Shown here: positions 38,034 to 58,235 of the stretch, in pieces | How the letters are laid out: every line of letters starts with the position of its first letter | Numbering within the stretch: the first letter of the stretch is position 1 | NCBI GenBank assembly: GCA_021809105.1 | Contig: JAKBAM010000001.1 | Coordinates: forward strand, 248,001-312,000 | DNA: 64,000 nt | Direction of reading: 5' to 3' | Origin: Actinomycetes bacterium | Lineage (GTDB): Bacteria > Actinomycetota > Acidimicrobiia > Acidimicrobiales > Palsa-688 | Notes under the pieces: model-generated | The model's input: only the letters and a program-made list of their open reading frames with translations | The model's database searches: none | Told to the model about the DNA's origin: nothing | Program-made: the position numbers and the translations under genes

Positions 38034-41000
38034 TCACGAGCAGCCGCTGGTCGTCCCACACGACGGGCAGGCGTGGCAGCTTCCGGCTCGCTGCATCTGG
38101 ACCCCGCATTGACCGCAGTAGGGCGCATCCGACTCGGTCGGGCGCACGGCGGGCGGCGTAGGCGCCGCTGCAGCGGCCACCGGAACCGGCATTTCGCCGG
38201 TCTCAAACAACGGGGTGACGTCAGCGCTCGACCGGTTGGGCGTGACGGTCTCGTCGATCCCCGGCAGGGTCTGCTGAGTCCGCTCGGCCGAGGTCATCAC
38301 GCCGAGCTCGGCCCGCTCGGAAGGCGGAAGGTAGTCCACGGCGAGCCGGCGGAAGATGTAGTCCACCAGTGACGACGCTATGCGCAGATCGGGATCGTCT
38401 GTCATGCCGGCAGGTTCGAACCGCATGTTGGTGTACTTCTTGACGTAGGTGGCCAACGGCACGCCGTGCTGCAGGCCCAAGCTGACCGATATGGCGAACG
38501 CATCCATGATGCCGGCGAGGGTCGAGCCCTGCTTGGCCACCTTCATGAAGACCTCGCCGGGACGGCCGTCCTCGTACTCGCCGACGGTCACGAATCCCTC
38601 GCAATCCGCCACACGGAAGGCAAAGGTGCTGGAGGTGCGCCGCCGGGGCATGCGCTCCCTGATCGGTTGCTTGACGACCACGGTCGTCTGGCGCTCCAGC
38701 GCCCTCTCCAGCTCGGCCACCTTGACCGCCAGCTCGGCATCGTGGCGCTCGCCGCCGGAGAGGGAAGGATCGGCCAAGGCCTTCTTGGCGGTCGCCAAGG
38801 GCTGGGCCACCTTACAGTTGTCCCGATACATGGCGATCGCCTTGAGGCCAAGTTGCCACGCCTCTATGTGCAGCTGCTCCACCTCCTCCACGGTGACCGA
38901 CTCGGGGACGTTGACCGTTTTCGAGATCGCACCGGAGATGAACGGCTGCACCGCCGCCATCATGTGGATATGACCCTGGTAATGGATGGTGTTGTCGCCC
39001 ATCGAGCAGGCAAACACCGGGAGGTGCTCGGCGGTGAGGTGAGGTGCACCCAGGATCGACTTGTGCTCGTCGATGTAGCCGATTATCTCGGCGATCTGGG
39101 CATCGCCATATCCCAGGCGCCGCAGAGCGCGAGGTACGGTCTGGTTGACGATGGACATCGTCCCCCCGCCGACCAGCTTCTTCATCTTCACGAGGCCGAG
39201 ATCCGGCTCGACACCAGTGGTGTCGCAGTCCATCAACAGGCCGATGGTGTTGTGGCTTACGAAGCCATTGGCGGTGTAGGTCACGTTGGAGGGGACTGAT
39301 ATGTCGTAAGTGAACTCCTCCTCGCCGAGCTCCGCCGTACTGATCCGGTCGTAGAAGAAGGACAGGAGGCGGCTCAACTCGGGATCGCCCGTGGCGTCCA
39401 ACAGCTCGCCTGCGACCGTCCGAGTCACCGTGCCGCGCGCGCTCTCCGCTAGCAGCACCCGCCGCAGCCGATCGTTGGCCGGTGCGAGGCGGTCGATGAT
39501 CTCCCGAGTTAGCGGGATGTGGTCGTGTCGACCCGATTGCGCAGTCGTAACGGCGGCCACGGCTGCTCGCTTCCGCTCGCTCATGAACCCGATCTCCCTC
39601 CCCCACCGGGCGGTGTGAGACAGGTTGAGCAACCGGAGATGGAACAGAGGAGCACTGCCCCAACGGCCCGCACCTGGCATCACCGTCGTCAGAGAGGTGG
39701 GGTATCCCAACGCCAGCAACAGGCTCTGCACGTCCCGGGCAAGCTGCGAGGAGGTGTTCTTGAGGTTGGCATAGCCGCCACTGGCGTCGCCGTCGGCCTC
39801 GAAGAGGCCGCGGATGAACGCTTGGTAGACACGAGGGTCGTTGGCGCCGAGCACGGCGTCGGGCACTTGAGCCTCATAGCCCTTGCCGTGGTGGGTGGCC
39901 GAAGGCGTTCGCTTCGCGAACCCGCACGCCTCCCACCACAGGACCAGTCTGACCGAGTCGATCCGGACTTCGGTGTACCCGCCCTTGTCAGAGATCACGG
40001 CCTCTAGAGCGAACAACTCCTTTGCCAGATCTCGGAGCCGACCGACGACATCGACATCCACGGCGGTGACGCAGAAGCGCAGGCCTCGGCTATGGAGTGA
40101 GCCGTCTCCCATGAAGTACCCGACCAGCTCAGCCAAGTCGGCGGTCATCGTCCTGGGCACGAGCGCGTTGTGCTCACCCGTCCAGTAAGCCTCAGCCAGT
40201 GGCGGCAGCACCACCTCCACCGGATCGCCGACCAACTGGTCTAGCGACATCGGGACGATGTCCTCCGGGCGGAGGTCGGCGAAGCGCACCCATCTCCATT
40301 CGCCGGTCACAGCGTCGACCACCTTGATCCTGTGCTGCGGCGTTCCCTGGATGCGGTGCCCGCGCACCGTCGTGGCAGTGACAATCGGCTCGAGCCCGTT
40401 GACGTAGAACTTGGTGGCCCGGCGCGGTCCGTCATCGGTGGCCACCTGTGCGTCGAGGTCCTGCCATTGTGCGCCCTCGGGATCGCCGAGCGAAGCCAGT
40501 CGAACCAGACCGCGGTCGGTCGCCACCAACGATCCGCCGACCAGGCATCCCGTCGGAGCCAACACGCTGGCCTGGGCGTTGCGCACCCCGTACTGCTCGG
40601 CAACCTCGACCGCCTGATCCCACGCCTCCTGGGCGGCGGACAGCAACTCTGGGGGAACCAGTTCCTCGTTGATGGAGGCCGCTGCATCACGGTGCATCCG
40701 CAGGACGCCGAGCATCGCGTCCCGGTCCTGGGTGAAGCCCGAGAAGGGTCCCATGCGCGCAGCGGTCCGTGCCGAGGTGGCGTACGCATGACCGGTGAGC
40801 AGGGCAGTGATGGCTCCGGCCCAGGCTCGACCTTCTTCTGAATCGTAGGGCAGTCCCTGGGCCATCAGCAGGGCGCCGAGGTTGGCGTAGCCGATGCCCA
40901 ACTGGCGGAAGCGGCGAGAGTTCTCGGCGATCTTCTCGGTCGGGTAGGAGGCGTTGCCGACGAGGATCTCCTGCGCCGTGAAAACCACTTCGGTGGAGGA

Positions 41001-44000
41001 CCGGAAGCCGTCGATGTCGAAGCTGCCCTCGGGCTCCAGGTAGGTCAGCAGGTTGAGGCTGGCCAGGTTGCACGCCGAGTTGTCCACGTGCATGTACTCG
41101 GAGCAGTTGCGCACCACCAGGCCATTGACGACGTATGAGTGGTTGCGCGGCTCGGAGAGGTTATAGGTGAGCTCATAGCCATCCTCGATCCGCTCGGCAA
41201 GGTGCGTCGTGGTAGCGGTCTGGCAGAGGCCGCTGACTCCAGCGGAGATGAGACCGGACAGCGCGGTGACCTTCTGGGGAACCGAAAACCCGACCATCGA
41301 TGCGAACTGCGAGATGGACGCCGCCGAGATGCGAAGGTCGAACATCGACCGGGCTTGGTAGTCGACGGTCTTGCCATCCGCGCTCTTGTGAGAGACACCG
41401 CTCTCCTCGGCCAGGCTGCCCTCATAGATCCGGGAGGCGATGCCCAGCGTGGACAGGAGCCGCTGGGCACCGACTAGGAGTTGGCGGGAGCTCGAACCGA
41501 GCCCGACATGACTGCCATCGAGGTCGTCGCTGTGTACGCAGCCGTCGGAGTCGAAGAGTCCCTGCAGGAAGGCGGCAACGATCTCCGACGGAGCCTGGTA
41601 GACCGACCATGGGATCTGCTTGTCGTGAGCCCGGGCGCTCGAAAGCCCCAACGCCTGGAACAAGTCGCTCAGGGAAGGACCGCTGAGGCCCAGCTGGGCC
41701 GTGCCATTGTCTGCGCCGCACCCATCACCGACGACCCAGCCGAGGTAGTGGGCCAACTCCGCAGTCCACTTCTCCGGGAGCCGCGTCGGGGCCGAGCGGT
41801 CGCCGACCTGGCGATGCGCCGCCACGTCAGTCGCCACCGGCAATGTCAGGTCCGCGCTGACAGCCAGCGCAGGAAGATCGAGCGTCTTCACCTCATCGGC
41901 AGGCGTCAGGTCCTTGGCTTCGACGTATCCCCGGTTGGTGGTGAAGATGCGGTGGCCGGGTGTGCAACGCAGCTCCATCCCGTTGGTGAAGCGCAACCGG
42001 ACGACGTCGTTGTACCCGGTGATCATGAAGGCTTCAGGTCTGGTCAGCTCCATCCGCTCTTCGGGGCTGTCAGGGTTGGTCGCGTCATGGGTCCACACCC
42101 CGAAGGTCTCGCCCTGGTTGGCTCGATCGAACAGCTCCCGGAACGCGACGAGGCCTTTGTCGGTGTGGACCAAAGCGTCACCGGTGAAGCAAGGGTTGCT
42201 CCCGTTGATCCGCCCATGGTTGGGGGCGGTATGCCACCGGTTGATGGTGGTGTCGAACTGCATGCCCGGGTCGGCGCACTCCCACGCTGCCTTGGCAATC
42301 TGGCGGAAAAGGTCGCGGGCGCGAATGGTCCTGACGACCTCGCCGTCAGTGACGGCCTTGAGCCCCCAGTCGGCATCGTCGACGACGGCCTGCATGAACT
42401 CGTCAGTCACCCTCACCGAATTGTTGGCGTTCTGGTACTGGATCGAGTGGCTGTCCTTGCCATCGAGGTCCATGTCGAACCCGGCGTCGCGAAGAGCCCG
42501 GGCCTTGCGCTCCTCGATCGTCTTGCACCAGATGAAGTCCTCGATGTCGGGATGGTCGACATCGAGGATCACCATCTTCGCGGCGCGGCGCGTCTTTCCA
42601 CCTGACTTGATGGTCCCAGCCGAAGCATCGGCACCTCGCATGAAGCTCACTGGGCCCGATGCGGTACCACCGCCGCGCAGGCCCTCGTAGGAAGAGCGGA
42701 TCCGCGAGAGGTTGACCCCGGCCCCAGAGCCTCCCTTGAAGATTACGCCTTCCTCCTTGTACCAGTTGAGGATGGAGTCCATCGAGTCCTCGACGGCGAG
42801 GATGAAGCAATTGTGAACCCGTAAGTTGCCGCTCAGATACTCGCCGCTCTCCGTTTGGATGTCGAAGACATCCATCTCGCCGCGCGCCTCGACGCGCTCA
42901 ATCTCCAGTCGCTTCTCATCGTTGTGGCCGCGCCCGGGGGTATCGAGGGAGGCTTCGAGCTTCGTCGCCTCCGTCTCGTCGATGAAACCGATCTCGTCGG
43001 CGAATCGCTGCCGGTCGCCGGCATTGCCGATGCTCAGGCACCAGCATCCCTGGCGATTCAGGCGGGCGTCTGCCTTGAATCGGACACGAGAGAATATCCC
43101 GAAGCGGGCCAGCAGAGCTTGAGCCCCCCGCACGATCCCCTCCGAGATCATGTCGAGGCCCACCTTCGACCCGCCGCCGAGACGGGGGGACACGTAGCCA
43201 TCGGCCTGGAAGATGCTCCGGAGGTAGGCACGAACGACCGGCAGCGGTGCGTCGAACAGCTGAGGTGGGACGGTCATGTCAGCGCCTCGGGCGCACCCAG
43301 CCAGGGCGGCCTCGGCCAGGGCCGTCGTGGTGATCTCACCGATGCCCCAGCTCTCGGTACGGTGCCAGGACAGCTGGTCACCGGCGACAAGATCGCTCGC
43401 CGGCACGAAGGATCCAGTCCGATCGCCGGATGCGCGCCAGACGAGGTGGTCACCCGTGACATCGAGCGTCACGCCAGCCTTGGTGTGAATACGCAGGACG
43501 GGCTTGCGCCCATTTGCCTTCGCAGCGACGATGCGGGTGAGACCATTGGCGTCGTAGACCTTGGTCCCGATCGCAGCACACTCGACCAATCGGCCGATCG
43601 GCTGCAACCCGTCGGGGGTGACGACCAAGGCGTCGTAGGGCTGGCACGCCGAGCCTTGCTGAGGCACCCCCTTGACTCCGATGTTGAACCACACCGGCGA
43701 GTTGAAGGCAGCCTTCTGGTGGATGATCAGGTACTTGAGCTCATCAGAGAAGATCTCCGCCTCGCTGTCATCGACGAAGTAGCCGTCCTTGACGCCCCAG
43801 GCGGTGATCGTGTCGACCACCCGGTCGGCGACCTGCTTGAGCGAGGACTCCCGCTCGGGCGTCCCCATGGTGCCCCGGAAGTACTTCTGAGCGAGGATGT
43901 TGGTGGCATTCACGCTCCACGTCGAGGGCACCTCCACCCCCGCCTGCTCGAAGGCGACCGCTCCGGTGGCCCAGTGAGAGATGCGAGCGTCGCGTCGCTC

Positions 44001-44087
44001 CCAGACCACGGTGTCGTAGGGGTGCTGACCGGCGGTGGTGTAACGCCGGCGAAGACCGATGCCCACGCTCTCGGGTGCGATTGCCAT
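38034..44087 (-). CDS. nrdJ: Adenosylcobalamin-dependent (class II) ribonucleotide reductase interrupted by three inteins
   Basis: Reduces ribonucleotides to deoxyribonucleotides using a B12-generated thiyl radical, independent of oxygen. The 2017-residue precursor contains three in-frame inteins (148-426, 633-994, 1181-1613); removing them leaves ~943 residues, normal for NrdJ. Extein landmarks: QQGSA|CFILAVEDSM (redox Cys equivalent to E. coli NrdA C225), GSNP|CSEYMHVDNSACNLASLNL (radical Cys C439 and partner C462 equivalents), and VLAPTG|TIGLLMDCDTTG (substrate phosphate loop). The C-terminal half has SSTFAFRVADCEGFVTVGEYEDGRPGEVFMKV (TSCPB domain) and ends in a Cys cluster CGQCG...CHACPSCG for re-reduction. 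AGAGGA precedes ATG 44087. No ATP-cone is evident at the N-terminus. Confidence 0.95.
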   Translation of the reverse strand: MAIAPESVGIGLRRRYTTAGQHPYDTVVWERRDARISHWATGAVAFEQAGVEVPSTWSVNATNILAQKYFRGTMGTPERESSLKQVADRVVDTITAWGVKDGYFVDDSEAEIFSDELKYLIIHQKAAFNSPVWFNIGVKGVPQQGSACQPYDALVVTPDGLQPIGRLVECAAIGTKVYDANGLTRIVAAKANGRKPVLRIHTKAGVTLDVTGDHLVWRASGDRTGSFVPASDLVAGDQLSWHRTESWGIGEITTTALAEAALAGCARGADMTVPPQLFDAPLPVVRAYLRSIFQADGYVSPRLGGGSKVGLDMISEGIVRGAQALLARFGIFSRVRFKADARLNRQGCWCLSIGNAGDRQRFADEIGFIDETEATKLEASLDTPGRGHNDEKRLEIERVEARGEMDVFDIQTESGEYLSGNLRVHNCFILAVEDSMDSILNWYKEEGVIFKGGSGAGVNLSRIRSSYEGLRGGGTASGPVSFMRGADASAGTIKSGGKTRRAAKMVILDVDHPDIEDFIWCKTIEERKARALRDAGFDMDLDGKDSHSIQYQNANNSVRVTDEFMQAVVDDADWGLKAVTDGEVVRTIRARDLFRQIAKAAWECADPGMQFDTTINRWHTAPNHGRINGSNPCFTGDALVHTDKGLVAFRELFDRANQGETFGVWTHDATNPDSPEERMELTRPEAFMITGYNDVVRLRFTNGMELRCTPGHRIFTTNRGYVEAKDLTPADEVKTLDLPALAVSADLTLPVATDVAAHRQVGDRSAPTRLPEKWTAELAHYLGWVVGDGCGADNGTAQLGLSGPSLSDLFQALGLSSARAHDKQIPWSVYQAPSEIVAAFLQGLFDSDGCVHSDDLDGSHVGLGSSSRQLLVGAQRLLSTLGIASRIYEGSLAEESGVSHKSADGKTVDYQARSMFDLRISAASISQFASMVGFSVPQKVTALSGLISAGVSGLCQTATTTHLAERIEDGYELTYNLSEPRNHSYVVNGLVVRNCSEYMHVDNSACNLASLNLLTYLEPEGSFDIDGFRSSTEVVFTAQEILVGNASYPTEKIAENSRRFRQLGIGYANLGALLMAQGLPYDSEEGRAWAGAITALLTGHAYATSARTAARMGPFSGFTQDRDAMLGVLRMHRDAAASINEELVPPELLSAAQEAWDQAVEVAEQYGVRNAQASVLAPTGCLVGGSLVATDRGLVRLASLGDPEGAQWQDLDAQVATDDGPRRATKFYVNGLEPIVTATTVRGHRIQGTPQHRIKVVDAVTGEWRWVRFADLRPEDIVPMSLDQLVGDPVEVVLPPLAEAYWTGEHNALVPRTMTADLAELVGYFMGDGSLHSRGLRFCVTAVDVDVVGRLRDLAKELFALEAVISDKGGYTEVRIDSVRLVLWWEACGFAKRTPSATHHGKGYEAQVPDAVLGANDPRVYQAFIRGLFEADGDASGGYANLKNTSSQLARDVQSLLLALGYPTSLTTVMPGAGRWGSAPLFHLRLLNLSHTARWGREIGFMSERKRAAVAAVTTAQSGRHDHIPLTREIIDRLAPANDRLRRVLLAESARGTVTRTVAGELLDATGDPELSRLLSFFYDRISTAELGEEEFTYDISVPSNVTYTANGFVSHNTIGLLMDCDTTGVEPDLGLVKMKKLVGGGTMSIVNQTVPRALRRLGYGDAQIAEIIGYIDEHKSILGAPHLTAEHLPVFACSMGDNTIHYQGHIHMMAAVQPFISGAISKTVNVPESVTVEEVEQLHIEAWQLGLKAIAMYRDNCKVAQPLATAKKALADPSLSGGERHDAELAVKVAELERALERQTTVVVKQPIRERMPRRRTSSTFAFRVADCEGFVTVGEYEDGRPGEVFMKVAKQGSTLAGIMDAFAISVSLGLQHGVPLATYVKKYTNMRFEPAGMTDDPDLRIASSLVDYIFRRLAVDYLPPSERAELGVMTSAERTQQTLPGIDETVTPNRSSADVTPLFETGEMPVPVAAAAAPTPPAVRPTESDAPYCGQCGVQMQRAGSCHACPSCGTTSGCS
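39249..40547 (-). mobile_element. Intein 3 of NrdJ, 433 residues, two LAGLIDADG motifs
   Basis: Protein residues 1181-1613. It starts CLVGGSLVATDRGLVRLAS; block B is IQGTPQHRIKV; endonuclease motifs are LAELVGYFMGDGSL and YQAFIRGLFEADGDASG. The end is FTYDISVPSNVTYTANGFVSHN|T, with penultimate His, terminal Asn and a Thr as +1 nucleophile. It is the largest of the three and probably carries an intact LAGLIDADG endonuclease. Insertion is within the PTG|TIG phosphate-binding loop. Confidence 0.93.
41106..42191 (-). mobile_element. Intein 2 of NrdJ, 362 residues, two LAGLIDADG motifs, penultimate Arg
   Basis: Protein residues 633-994. It starts CFTGDALVHTDKGLVAF; block B is LRCTPGHRIF; endonuclease motifs are LAHYLGWVVGDGCG and AAFLQGLFDSDGCVH. 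The end is YNLSEPRNHSYVVNGLVVRN|C. The penultimate residue is Arg rather than the usual His that assists Asn cyclisation. It is inserted between Pro and the thiyl-radical Cys of NPCSE, so the +1 splicing nucleophile is the catalytic cysteine itself. Confidence 0.93.
42810..43646 (-). mobile_element. Intein 1 of NrdJ, 279 residues, degenerate homing endonuclease
   Basis: Protein residues 148-426. Block A starts CQPYDALVVTPDG; block B carries the T-x-x-H (VTGDHLVW); the end is VFDIQTESGEYL followed by ...VHN|C with penultimate His, terminal Asn and +1 Cys. Only one LAGLIDADG-type motif (YLRSIFQADGYV) is visible and the first is missing, so endonuclease activity is probably lost while splicing should work. 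It is inserted directly before the redox-active cysteine of the reductase. Confidence 0.92.
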
Positions 44088-44186
44088 TCGGAAGTCCTCT
44101 CGGTCTCTGCTGTTCGCGTAGTCGGTTCGTGCTCGGAGAACGAGCGGTGGAGCCAGGTTGTCGGTTTGGGCGGCGGCAGTGACCGT

Positions 44187-44228
44187 CCGGCGTCCCCTAC
44201 CACAAGTACTTGTGGTAGGGGACGCCGG
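44187..44228. promoter_or_regulatory. 42-bp perfect palindrome upstream of nrdJ with NrdR-box-like core
   Basis: Two exact 21-nt arms meet without a spacer between 44207 and 44208; the left arm starts CCGGCGTCCC and the centre reads CCACAAGT-ACTTGTGG (44200-44215). The central 16 bp resemble the NrdR box, a dyad of form aCaCwA-TwGtGt that represses ribonucleotide reductase genes. A half-matching copy, CCACAAGATACAGGAT, lies at 44241-44256, 41 bp away centre to centre, about four helical turns. It is 100 bp upstream of the nrdJ start. As RNA it would fold into a very stable hairpin. Confidence 0.6.
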
Positions 44229-44260
44229 AGCGGCTTACGACCACAAGATACAGGATCGTA

Positions 44261-44290
44261 ATTTCATCACTGTTACTTACAGCGTGTCAA
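44261..44290 (-). promoter_or_regulatory. Candidate nrdJ promoter
   Basis: Reading the minus strand, TTGACA (44290-44285) is followed after 18 bp by TGAAAT (44266-44261). Transcription would start near 44254, inside the second NrdR-like site (44241-44256) and upstream of the 42-bp palindrome, leaving a leader of ~165 nt with AGAGGA before the ATG. The consensus -35 is good and the -10 moderate. Confidence 0.45.
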
Positions 44291-44692
44291 TGGCTGGGCA
44301 GATGGGAAACCCCTGGTCAGATGCCGCTCGCGAAGGTTTGCACCCAGACCGGTACCAGGCCGTCCCCGCTTGGGCACGCTAGGCCGGTGTCGCTGTGGAC
44401 CGATAGACGTACATCCTGTGGATCTCCGGGGGACAAGGGGGCGACTGTTCCACACCCCTTCGCAGTTGCCCGTCGAGCCGTCCGTGCTCTTACGAGAACT
44501 TGTCCTTCAAGCCCGGACCATGCCGGTTAAAGTACCCACAGACGGGGTACCCTCTTTACAGCCGCCGAAGCTGCCCCCTCGGCGGTGCCCCCTCCGACGC
44601 AGGCCCTCCTGTCCCCGCCCCTTCGATGGGAGGGTCGCGTCGGAGCCCTCAGACGCTCGGCGCCCCTCGATTCCCTTCCCTGCCAGGGGGCG
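44291..44692. other. Non-coding region rich in inverted repeats between nrdJ promoter and the ACT gene
   Basis: I find no credible gene here. The half nearer the ACT gene has four successive inverted repeats: TAAAG-TACCC / GGGTA-(ccct)-CTTTA (44528-44558), CCGCCGA / TCGGCGG (44562-44585), CTCCGACGC / GCGTCGGAG with an inner CCCTCC / GGAGGG (44592-44645), and GCGCCCC(T) / (A)GGGGGCGC (44660-44693). The last two follow the ACT gene's stop codon and could be its terminator. The density also permits a small structured RNA. The other half (44291-44520) shows no motif I can name, and no B12 riboswitch was found. Confidence 0.4.
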
Positions 44693-45370
44693 CTACGGCG
44701 TGGCGCTGGGGTGCAGCATCCGAGCCGATCTGGTGACCAGGTCCATCCAGCGCTGATCCACGATGCGAGCCAGCGCCGAAAGCTGCCGGCGCTCACGTGC
44801 CCGGAACGGCCGACCGCGCCTACCTAGCAGGACGACCAGGTCCGCGGCCCCCAGCTCGGCCCATGCCATGTCATCGGGGCCTCCGAGGTCGCCAGGCGCG
44901 GCAGACGCGCGGCTTCCAGCCACGAAGGCCCGCAACCAGGCGGCCGGGGGCGCAGTCCCCACCTGGGCCACCGCCGACGCGGCCTCGAGGTCGAGGACCA
45001 CCGCCCAGTCGGCCTGGAAGTCCCGGCTGCTGCGCCGAGCCAGCGCCTCGAGCAGCTCCGGCACGCTCAACTGATCGACCAGGAATGCCGCTGTCTCAAG
45101 CGCGTCGAGGCGGGGGTCCACGACCGACGACAAGGCAGGACGGACGTCCTCCACGTCGACCCCATCGACCTCGGACACCTCCGATACCAGCAGCGGGACC
45201 AGATCCTCGTTGGGCAGCTCCACCACCAGTTCGTCGATCGCCCTGCCCGCTCCCCGCTCGAGGATGTCGATACCGATCAGATCGCCGCGCACAGCACCGA
45301 TCCGGCTGGCTACTGCACCAAGGGCGCCCGGACGGTCGGGTACCCACACGCGGAGGAGGAACGTCGCCAT
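44693..45370 (-). CDS. ACT-domain protein, function unknown
   Basis: 225 residues from ATG 45370 (a TTG at 45379 would add three). Residues 1-75 form an ACT domain (FLLRVWVPDRPGALGAVASRIGAVRGDLIGIDILERGAGRAIDELVVELP in order), which usually binds an amino acid. The remaining ~150 residues include QADWAVVLDLEAASAVAQVGTAPPAAWLRAFVAGSRAS and LVVLLGRRGRPFRARERRQLSALARIVDQRWMDL, which resembles the end of a GAF-like sensor domain. It is probably a ligand-responsive regulatory protein; no DNA-binding motif is seen. It lies 87 bp downstream of plsC on the same strand. Confidence 0.75.
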   Translation of the reverse strand: MATFLLRVWVPDRPGALGAVASRIGAVRGDLIGIDILERGAGRAIDELVVELPNEDLVPLLVSEVSEVDGVDVEDVRPALSSVVDPRLDALETAAFLVDQLSVPELLEALARRSSRDFQADWAVVLDLEAASAVAQVGTAPPAAWLRAFVAGSRASAAPGDLGGPDDMAWAELGAADLVVLLGRRGRPFRARERRQLSALARIVDQRWMDLVTRSARMLHPSATP

Positions 45371-45457
45371 GGGGCCCAACCTAAACCGGCGATGTGAACC
45401 CCATGTTTCGCTGCGGCCGCCGGGCGGTTACATCCTCCGAACGGTTGTGGGGCGAGC

Positions 45458-46204
45458 TCAGTCGGCCAGCACTCGGGGATCGTCGGCCGAGGCCGGGGCG
45501 GACAACGAGTTGGAAGCATGCTCCGGAGGGCCCGGGGCACGTGAGTCCTCCTCCGACCCGTGGCGTTTGGCGTAGTGAGCGACGCGGACCTGCCCGGTGA
45601 TGGCCCCGATGGCGTCGACGATCTCGTCGGTCACCCGCCGCAGCGTGTCCCTGTCGACATGGTCGTCCGCCTCGTCGTCCCAGCGCAATGGAGGCGCGAT
45701 AGTAACCGTGATGGTGCCGAAAGGCCTTGGCACGCGAGCGCCGATCGGCTGGGCCTCGGCCGTGCCCCGCAGCCCGATCGGCACCACCGGCACCTTGCAG
45801 GCCAGCGCCATTCGCGCCGCGCCGGTGCGCCCCTTGTACAGCCGGCCATCCGGGGAGCGTGTGCCTTCCGGGTAGATCCCGAGAGCACCGCCGGCCTCAA
45901 GCACCTCCCGCGCTGCGGCCAGCGCCCGATCGGCAGCAGAACCCCCCTCCCGCTTGATGGGGATCTGGCCGCCGAGGCGAAAGAACCATGCCACCCGCCG
46001 GTCCTCGAAGTACTCGGCCTTGGCCAGGAACGTGACCCTCCGGCCAGCGATAAGCGGGATTATCAGGTTGTCCAGGAACGACACGTGATTGGCGGCGAGG
46101 ATCACCGCGCCCCGCTTGGGCAGGTGATCCCTGCCGACGACCTCGATCCGGTAGAACAGTCTCAGGATCGGGGATAGCACCAACTTGATCAGCGTGTACC
46201 CCAT
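45458..46204 (-). CDS. plsC: 1-acyl-sn-glycerol-3-phosphate acyltransferase (PlsC family)
   Basis: Adds the second acyl chain to lysophosphatidic acid in phospholipid synthesis. 248 residues: a short hydrophobic N-terminus, the catalytic NHVSFLD motif (H40, D45), block II-like FEDRRVAWFFRLGGQIPIKR, YPEGTRSPDG (111-120) and VVPIGLRGTAEA. The C-terminal ~40 residues are polar and probably disordered (GSEEDSRAPGPPEHASNSLSAPASADD). All acyltransferase motifs are intact. Confidence 0.92.
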   Translation of the reverse strand: MGYTLIKLVLSPILRLFYRIEVVGRDHLPKRGAVILAANHVSFLDNLIIPLIAGRRVTFLAKAEYFEDRRVAWFFRLGGQIPIKREGGSAADRALAAAREVLEAGGALGIYPEGTRSPDGRLYKGRTGAARMALACKVPVVPIGLRGTAEAQPIGARVPRPFGTITVTIAPPLRWDDEADDHVDRDTLRRVTDEIVDAIGAITGQVRVAHYAKRHGSEEDSRAPGPPEHASNSLSAPASADDPRVLAD

Positions 46205-46270: not shown

Positions 46271-47488
46271 TCACCCGAGCTTGGTCAGAGAGCGGCGCAG
46301 GTTTCGAATGCTCTGGTGTATCCGCTGCTCGTTCTCGATCAGAGCGAAGCGCACGAAGCCCTCCCCCCCCTTGCCGAAGCCGACGCCAGGCGATGTGGCG
46401 ACCTCGGCGTCGGTGACGAGAAACTTGGAGAAGTCCAGCGAGCCCATCTCCCTGTACGGCTCGGGGATGGGAGCCCAAACGAACATCGTGCCTTTGGGCG
46501 CTTCGATCTCCCAGCCGATCCGGTTGAGGCCTTCGCAGAGTGCGTCGCGCCGTCCCTGGTAGATCTCATTGACAACCTTGGGGTAGTCCTGCGCCTCGTT
46601 CATAGTGACGATGGCAGCGATCTGGATCGGCTGGAAGGTGCCGTAGTCCAGGTAGCTCTTGAGCTTGGTCAGCGCCTGGACGATCTCGCGGTTGCCGACC
46701 ATGAACGCGACCCTCCAGCCCGCCATCGAGAAGCTCTTGGTCAGCGTATAGAGCTCCACGGCGACATCCTTGGCTCCCGGCACCTGCATGATCGAAGGCG
46801 GCTGATAGCCGTCGAAGGCGGTGTCGGAGTACGCGAAATCGTGGACCAGGATCACGTCGTGCTCGCGGGCGAAGTCGACGATGCGCTGCATCCACGCCAG
46901 GTCTACGCACTCCGTCGTGGGGTTGTGCGGGAACGAGAAGACGATGACCCGAGGCCGGGGCCACGTGGACTCCCAGCTCTCCATCAGGTTGGCGAAGAAA
47001 TCCTGGTCCGGCCCCAATCGCACCTGCTGGACGTCGGCGCCGGCAAAGAGGGGCGCGTAGATATGGATCGGGTAGCTGGGCGTAGGCACCAGGGCAGTGT
47101 CGCCAGGCCCTACGAGAGTCCACATCAGGTGAGACAGACCCTCCTTGGCACCGATGGTGGTCACCACCTCGGTGTCGGGGTCCAGTTCCACGCCGAAACG
47201 GCGCAGGTAGAGGTTGGAGGCCGCCAAGCGCAGCTTGGGGATGCCCCGGGATGCGGAATAACGGTGGTTGCGGGGGTTGCGGGCCGCCTCGACCAGCTTG
47301 TCCACCGCCAGGTCGGGGCTCGGTATGTCGGGGTTGCCGAAACCCATGTCCACGATGTCGCGACCGGCCTGGCGGCCCTCGTCGCGAAGCTCGTTGATGA
47401 TGCTGAACACATACGGCGGCAGGCCGTTGATCCTGCGGAACTCCACGCCTCCCACGCTACTTGACACCGCATCCGCTCCCGGTCGCAT
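46271..47488 (-). CDS. alaC: PLP-dependent class I/II aminotransferase, AlaC-like
   Basis: Probable glutamate-pyruvate (alanine) transaminase. 405 residues. The [39 protein letters not shown] opening (in order) matches the AlaC branch. PLP-binding lysine is K251 in [16 protein letters not shown], with upstream [10 protein letters not shown] and [13 protein letters not shown] at 47446 is an alternative start nearer the conserved region. The stop codon of the ROK kinase gene overlaps the ATG by one base (TAATG), so translation is coupled. Related proteins are often labelled LL-diaminopimelate aminotransferase, so substrate is not certain. Confidence 0.85.
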
Positions 47489-48576
47489 TACGGACCTCCG
47501 CTCCGACCCCCGCCGGCGGCGATCAGCGCAGACCCGACGGCGCCGGCCCGCTCACCGAGGGCGGCGGCCTCGATGCGAACGCCTCGTAGCCGCCCGGCTT
47601 CGACCAGGCGATCGAATGCGACCCGCACCGGGGGTAGCAGCAGATCGCCGGCCTCGATCAAACCTCCGCCGAGGACAATCACCCGAGGATCGAACGCGTT
47701 CGCCAGGTTGGCCAAGCCGAGGGCGAGCCACCAGGCGAATCGACCCATGATCTCGCGAGCATCGGAGTCACCCGCCCGGGCCGCCTGGGTCACATGCTCC
47801 CCCCGCACCGCCTCGGGGTCACCGCCGGCCAGTTCGCGCACTGCGGGAGCCCGTTCGCCGAGCGCGGCCTCCCGTCCCAGCTGGCCCAGCCCACTACCGG
47901 AGGCGTAACGCTCCCAGCACCCTTGCTTTCCGCACGGGCACAGCTGCCCATGCGGGTCGATGACCATGTGACCGAACTCCCCGGCAAAGCGGTTGGTGCC
48001 CTCGTTGAGAATTCCGCCGCTGATGATGCCGCCGCCAATCCCGGTCCCCAACGTGACCATGAGGACGTCCTCGGCACCGACTGCAGCCCCCAAGCGGTGC
48101 TCGGCCCAGGCTGCGGCGGTGGCGTCGTTACCCACCCAAAAGTCGGAGGTCGGGAGATGGGCGCGGACCCGCTCTGTCACCGGCAGGCCGACCAGCCCTG
48201 GCAGATGTGGAGAGAAGCGCAGCACACCGCCGAGATCCACCAGGCCCGGGACTCCGATCCCGATAGCGGCCGGCGCCCCCTCCGGGCACAGCTCGTGCAC
48301 CAACTCGACGATCCGCGCCACGACCTCGCCGCCTTCCAGCGGGGTGGGACAGCGAGCCTCTGCCTCCACGGGCTGCTCGAGACCCTGCGGCTCGGTGCCG
48401 ACCGCCTCCGCCGCCAGGCGCACGGCCAGCATCTTGGTCCCCCCGATGTCCACGCCGACACAAGGCGCGCCGTAGCCGCGCCTTGTGTCGGCCTGGGCGC
48501 GCGCCCCACCATTCGAAGCCGCGCCAGATGTAGGCACAGGATCCGGTTTGACGTCAGGACGCAGCGATGCGAGCAC
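47488..48576 (-). CDS. ROK-family sugar kinase, glucokinase-like
   Basis: Phosphorylates a hexose, most likely glucose. After a polar N-terminal tail the ATP site GVDIGGTKM appears near residue 41. [12 protein letters not shown] holds the catalytic Asp, [13 protein letters not shown] the phosphate loop, and [29 protein letters not shown] the ROK zinc site (C-x-C-GKxG-C) with its upstream His. The GTG start at 48576 overlaps the SDR gene by 23 bp; GTG at 48537 would avoid this. No helix-turn-helix precedes the kinase domain, so it is an enzyme rather than a ROK repressor. Confidence 0.9.
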
Positions 48577-58193: not shown

Positions 58194-58235
58194 ACAGGAC
58201 CGGCCCGTCCCCGGAGTGGGACGGGCCGGTCCTGT
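58194..58235 (-). terminator. 18-bp perfect stem-loop between rubrerythrin and GlpC-like genes
   Basis: The arm at 58194-58211 (ACAGGACCGGCCCGTCCC) and its exact inverted complement at 58218-58235 enclose a 6-nt loop. Lying 27 bp after the rubrerythrin stop, it could be a partial terminator or an RNA 3'-stabiliser that gives more rubrerythrin than downstream products. No T-run follows on the minus strand. The core AGGACCGG also occurs in the hairpin at 13325. Confidence 0.7.

Follow-up and report, generated by a model that had tools for sequence, protein, structure and literature searches.

A putative long-spacer NrdR operator upstream of nrdJ in Acidimicrobiales, with one box extended into a 44-bp perfect palindrome

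Results and Discussion

The window, the 64,000-nucleotide stretch of DNA analysed here, carries the ribonucleotide reductase (RNR) gene nrdJ on the minus strand, and the following features are found or predicted at its locus:

38034-44087, minus strand: nrdJ, B12-dependent class II RNR of 2017 amino acids, interrupted by inteins (NCBIfam PRK06556, TIGR02504; Pfam)
44186-44229, minus strand: predicted leader RNA hairpin with a 20-bp stem and a GUAC loop, at about +25 to +68 (RNA fold)
44200-44215, no strand: strong NrdR box, the perfect palindrome CCACAAGTACTTGTGG, which fits the 18-mer learned from relatives, ACCACAACATGTTGTGGT
44241-44256, no strand: weak NrdR box, CCACAAGATACAGGAT (ATCCTGTATCTTGTGG on the minus strand), with one good half-site, recognized through the half-site spacing in relatives
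44261-44266, minus strand: predicted -10 element TGAAAT, within the invariant TGAAATTAC block common with the same-genus relative
44285-44290, minus strand: predicted -35 element TTGACA, identical in the same-genus relative

nrdJ is the only gene for an RNR large subunit found in the genome, a search for a second one having returned none. NrdJ apparently carries three inteins (Intein_splicing matches and three LAGLIDADG_3 stretches), and the sole RNR would therefore depend on multiple protein-splicing events. The initial annotation, which had noticed an NrdR-like site in front of the gene, proposed scanning the genome for nrdR and for the same 16-mer upstream of other nrd genes. One nrdR gene was found (TIGR00244, 161.8 bits against a cut-off of 124.65), encoding a protein with a Zn-ribbon and an ATP-cone in the same genome as the nrdJ operator, while the whole-genome search (3.65 Mb) returned no other match to the 16-mer with up to two mismatches. 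The NrdR protein can be aligned to 7p37, the structure of S. coelicolor NrdR, and its VVDSR and RRRR motifs are intact; the DNA contacts of NrdR are made by residues D15, R17 and R26-29 (PMC9110341). Its gene (G000:C108:111556-111996) shares a contig with nrdJ at a distance of about 180 kb, whereas the two genes are no more than about 2 kb apart in several relatives (for instance G093, G104 and G116). Autoregulation of nrdR was also considered and rejected, as the 1.5 kb that surround and precede the gene contain no good box (best score -2.1).

The strong and the weak box are separated by a spacer of 25 bp and their centres lie 41 bp apart, about four helical turns, which bears out the second, half-matching site that had been noticed at this distance over the predicted transcription start. 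Upstream of nrdJ there is a pair of 16-bp palindromic boxes, and its spacing falls in one of the two helically phased classes, 14-17 or 24-27 bp. Box pairs of both classes are bound by the purified NrdRs of four bacteria (PMC12051234), and there is precedent for an NrdR box that overlaps the start site (PMC9110341). In a whole-genome pattern search TTGTGG-N13-28-CCACAA occurred once, and no second box pair was found elsewhere in the genome.

Conservation was assessed in nrdJ upstream regions gathered from relatives in Acidimicrobiales (n=149), from which the symmetric motif was learned. Of the 149 regions, 132 contain the strong box ACCACAACATGTTGTGGT. Where a weaker half-site, ATNTYGTG, is found upstream of this box, the spacer is either 14-16 bp (n=33) or 24-26 bp (n=31), and none of these 64 half-sites had another spacing in the scanned range of about 4 to 44 bp. 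The same-genus relative, Acidiferrimicrobium sp. IK (G001/L047), keeps the promoter, the weak box and the strong box. In four relatives (L069, L081, L117 and L121) nrdJ is preceded, at about 250 bp, by a diverged box (TTACACAGGATGTTGTGTT), and the second box-like site lies 15 bp downstream of that box, not upstream. Furthermore, one family (L151 and L166 versus L018-L027) holds both short (15-16 bp) and long (26 bp) spacers, so that the spacing there has changed by one helical turn at least once. No sign was seen of a tie between spacer length and the length of the NrdR linker: relatives with long and with short spacers have NrdRs whose alignments to the query cover the same length.

With a single nrdR, a single RNR, a unique two-box pair and strictly phased spacing in relatives, the NrdR reading of the core, already suspected in the initial annotation, is well supported. 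Judged on sequence, we put the probability that 44200-44215 and 44241-44256 form a long-spacer NrdR operator of nrdJ at roughly 0.8; the poor weak box, with one good half, counts against it.

The consensus scan missed the predicted nrdJ promoter because its -10 element is poor and the predicted spacer to the -35 element is 18 bp. A promoter-like pair was located in 111 of the 132 relatives, and its distance to the strong box is fixed in most cases. On these elements, transcription of nrdJ would start near 44253-44254, inside the weak box, and the palindrome around the strong box would occupy about +25 to +68 of the minus-strand leader.

This palindrome had been described as perfect, 42 bp long and with 21-base arms. 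It is indeed perfect and spacer-less; its length is 44 bp (44186-44229), with arms of 22, one base more on each side. It consists of the 16-mer of the strong box with 14 bp added on each side. The rarity attributed to such arms was borne out in a background sample of 424 kb, made up of the window and 18 further 20-kb stretches of the genome, where it was the sole palindrome with arms above 11, the next longest having arms of 11. For the 13 extra pairs past the 18-bp box, the probability calculated from flank composition is about 3e-8, or 3e-6 over the 102 boxes examined. Many copies elsewhere would have pointed to a repeat family; across all 3.65 Mb, both the palindrome and its central 16-mer turned up once only, and a dispersed palindromic repeat family is therefore ruled out. 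Two further inverted repeats were observed in the window: a hairpin at 58194-58235 (ACAGGACCGGCCCGTCCC...), whose 18-bp arms are perfect and enclose a loop of 6 bases and which ranks second to the palindrome, and a GC-rich one at 48454-48492 with 16-bp arms and a 7-base loop, within the 5' part of ORF 47488-48576.

The symmetry past about 18 bp is not conserved. Beyond the 18-bp box the window has 13 extra pairs per arm and no other promoter has more than six; the same-genus relative keeps the boxes without the long arms, its flanks forming a loose, bulged quasi-palindrome (p 0.024). Short extensions are nonetheless in excess among relatives. After removal of near-duplicates, three or more extra contiguous Watson-Crick pairs were found in 10 of 73 promoters against 1.9 expected, a count reached in none of 2000 shuffles of the right flanks among sequences. 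In the same 73 promoters G-U or A-C pairs outside the box remained at control level, and the extended bases differ between genomes, with no sequence common to relatives. Since Watson-Crick extensions exceed chance while G-U and A-C pairs do not and the extended bases vary, the excess speaks for an action at the DNA level, be it mutation by template switching or loose contacts of the repressor, and less for an RNA stem that is conserved. Contacts made by NrdR immediately beyond the 16-mer could also account for it.

Quasi-palindromes are known to become perfect through template switching (PMC7202029). We somewhat favour such an origin for the long arms, one arm having been copied onto the other. 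The upstream arm of the window is closer to the downstream arm of the congener (p 0.0007) than to its positional counterpart (p 0.06), in a comparison with one congener, arms of 14-16 bases and modest p values uncorrected for the several comparisons. This resemblance is as expected if the downstream arm had been copied onto the upstream one, and is suggestive only.

A second role for the extra symmetry, as an RNA hairpin, a site for a larger protein complex or a cruciform, had been put forward in the initial annotation and is not supported: the long arms occur in the window genome only, and relatives show no sign of the upkeep of a hairpin. A selected leader hairpin with an embedded NrdR box, which would influence the stability of nrdJ mRNA, processing by RNase III or pausing of the polymerase, is an unlikely alternative. 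A start near 44254 would place the hairpin in the transcript, its 20-bp stem is very stable (the 171-nt nrdJ leader folds at -77.7 kcal/mol, z -5.5), and longer stems also occur in a few relatives (L032, L149, L104 and L059). In addition, the box-centred leaders of relatives have on average a slightly more stable fold than shuffled sequences (mean z -0.54, p 8e-5, kinship ignored), which leaves room for weak selection on structure. However, the long arms are not conserved even within the genus, and conserved pairing with compensatory change was not seen: the congener does not have the long arms, and the relatives do not have the G-U excess that maintained RNA pairing would predict. No U-run follows the stem, which rules out an intrinsic terminator or attenuator, and no Rfam family scored above gathering in 43500-45500, so that a riboswitch or other known RNA was rejected as well. 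The hairpin is physically likely if the start is where predicted, and an effect on the life of nrdJ mRNA is possible.

Slightly less probable still is a reading in which a larger NrdR assembly or another regulator sits on the extended dyad, or in which the dyad is extruded into a cruciform that competes with NrdR. Symmetry at the DNA level and the small Watson-Crick excess just outside the box in relatives would fit such a role, whereas the extended bases have no common sequence, symmetry at positions 16-23 in relatives is not consistently above control, and the known two-box NrdR complex is a tetramer on 16-bp boxes (PMC9110341, PMC12051234). A fold-back assembly artefact, conceivable in a draft of 118 contigs, is very improbable, as it would carry on as an inverted duplicate, whereas both flanks run into distinct sequence collinear with the same-genus promoter and leader. 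The extra symmetry is hence better explained as a mutational extension of an already palindromic box than by a second role.

Taken together with the two boxes, we propose that at high dATP an NrdR tetramer loaded with dATP and ATP would form on the nrdJ operator and bridge the two boxes, linking the strong one, located in the leader, to the weak one that covers the predicted start four helical turns away. The tetramer would bend or kink the DNA and keep RNA polymerase off the sole RNR gene; bridging and kinking are proposed by analogy with the solved NrdR-DNA complex (PMC9110341). The 44-bp palindrome would be the strong box together with an imperfect dyad that this lineage inherited and then perfected, most likely through a template switch during replication.

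The arrangement resembles known systems in part. Like the S. coelicolor nrdRJ operator, the window combines the NrdR family, a class II RNR target, two 16-bp boxes and overlap with the start site. In contrast to that operator, its spacer is 25 bp instead of 15-16 bp, nrdR lies far off instead of adjoining nrdJ, and one box is very weak. The same extra helical turn between boxes is found in the Streptococcus pneumoniae nrdHEF and nrdDG operators (24-26 bp), which belong to another phylum and another RNR class; in the window, the strong box is moreover downstream of the predicted start, in the leader. Conversion of an imperfect inverted repeat into a perfect one is known from quasipalindrome template-switch mutations at the E. 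coli thyA hotspot and in lacZ QP reporters, with the difference that for the window the switch is deduced by comparison, not observed, and that a regulatory site would be its seed.

Conclusions

The core of the nrdJ upstream region is ordinary, a putative long-spacer NrdR operator, and the lineage-specific part is the perfect extension of one of its boxes. Tentatively, palindromic repressor sites such as NrdR boxes might seed template switching, so that operators of essential genes would repeatedly grow perfect palindromes outside the bases read by the repressor; the window would be an extreme case, which may add a leader hairpin affecting nrdJ mRNA. No paper on NrdR in Acidimicrobiales was found among the open papers searched, and the present analysis would put a sole, essential class II reductase of this order under the control of NrdR. 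Short and long box spacing coexist within one order and even within one family, and the excess symmetry around the boxes offers a natural test of the interplay between operators and mutation hotspots.
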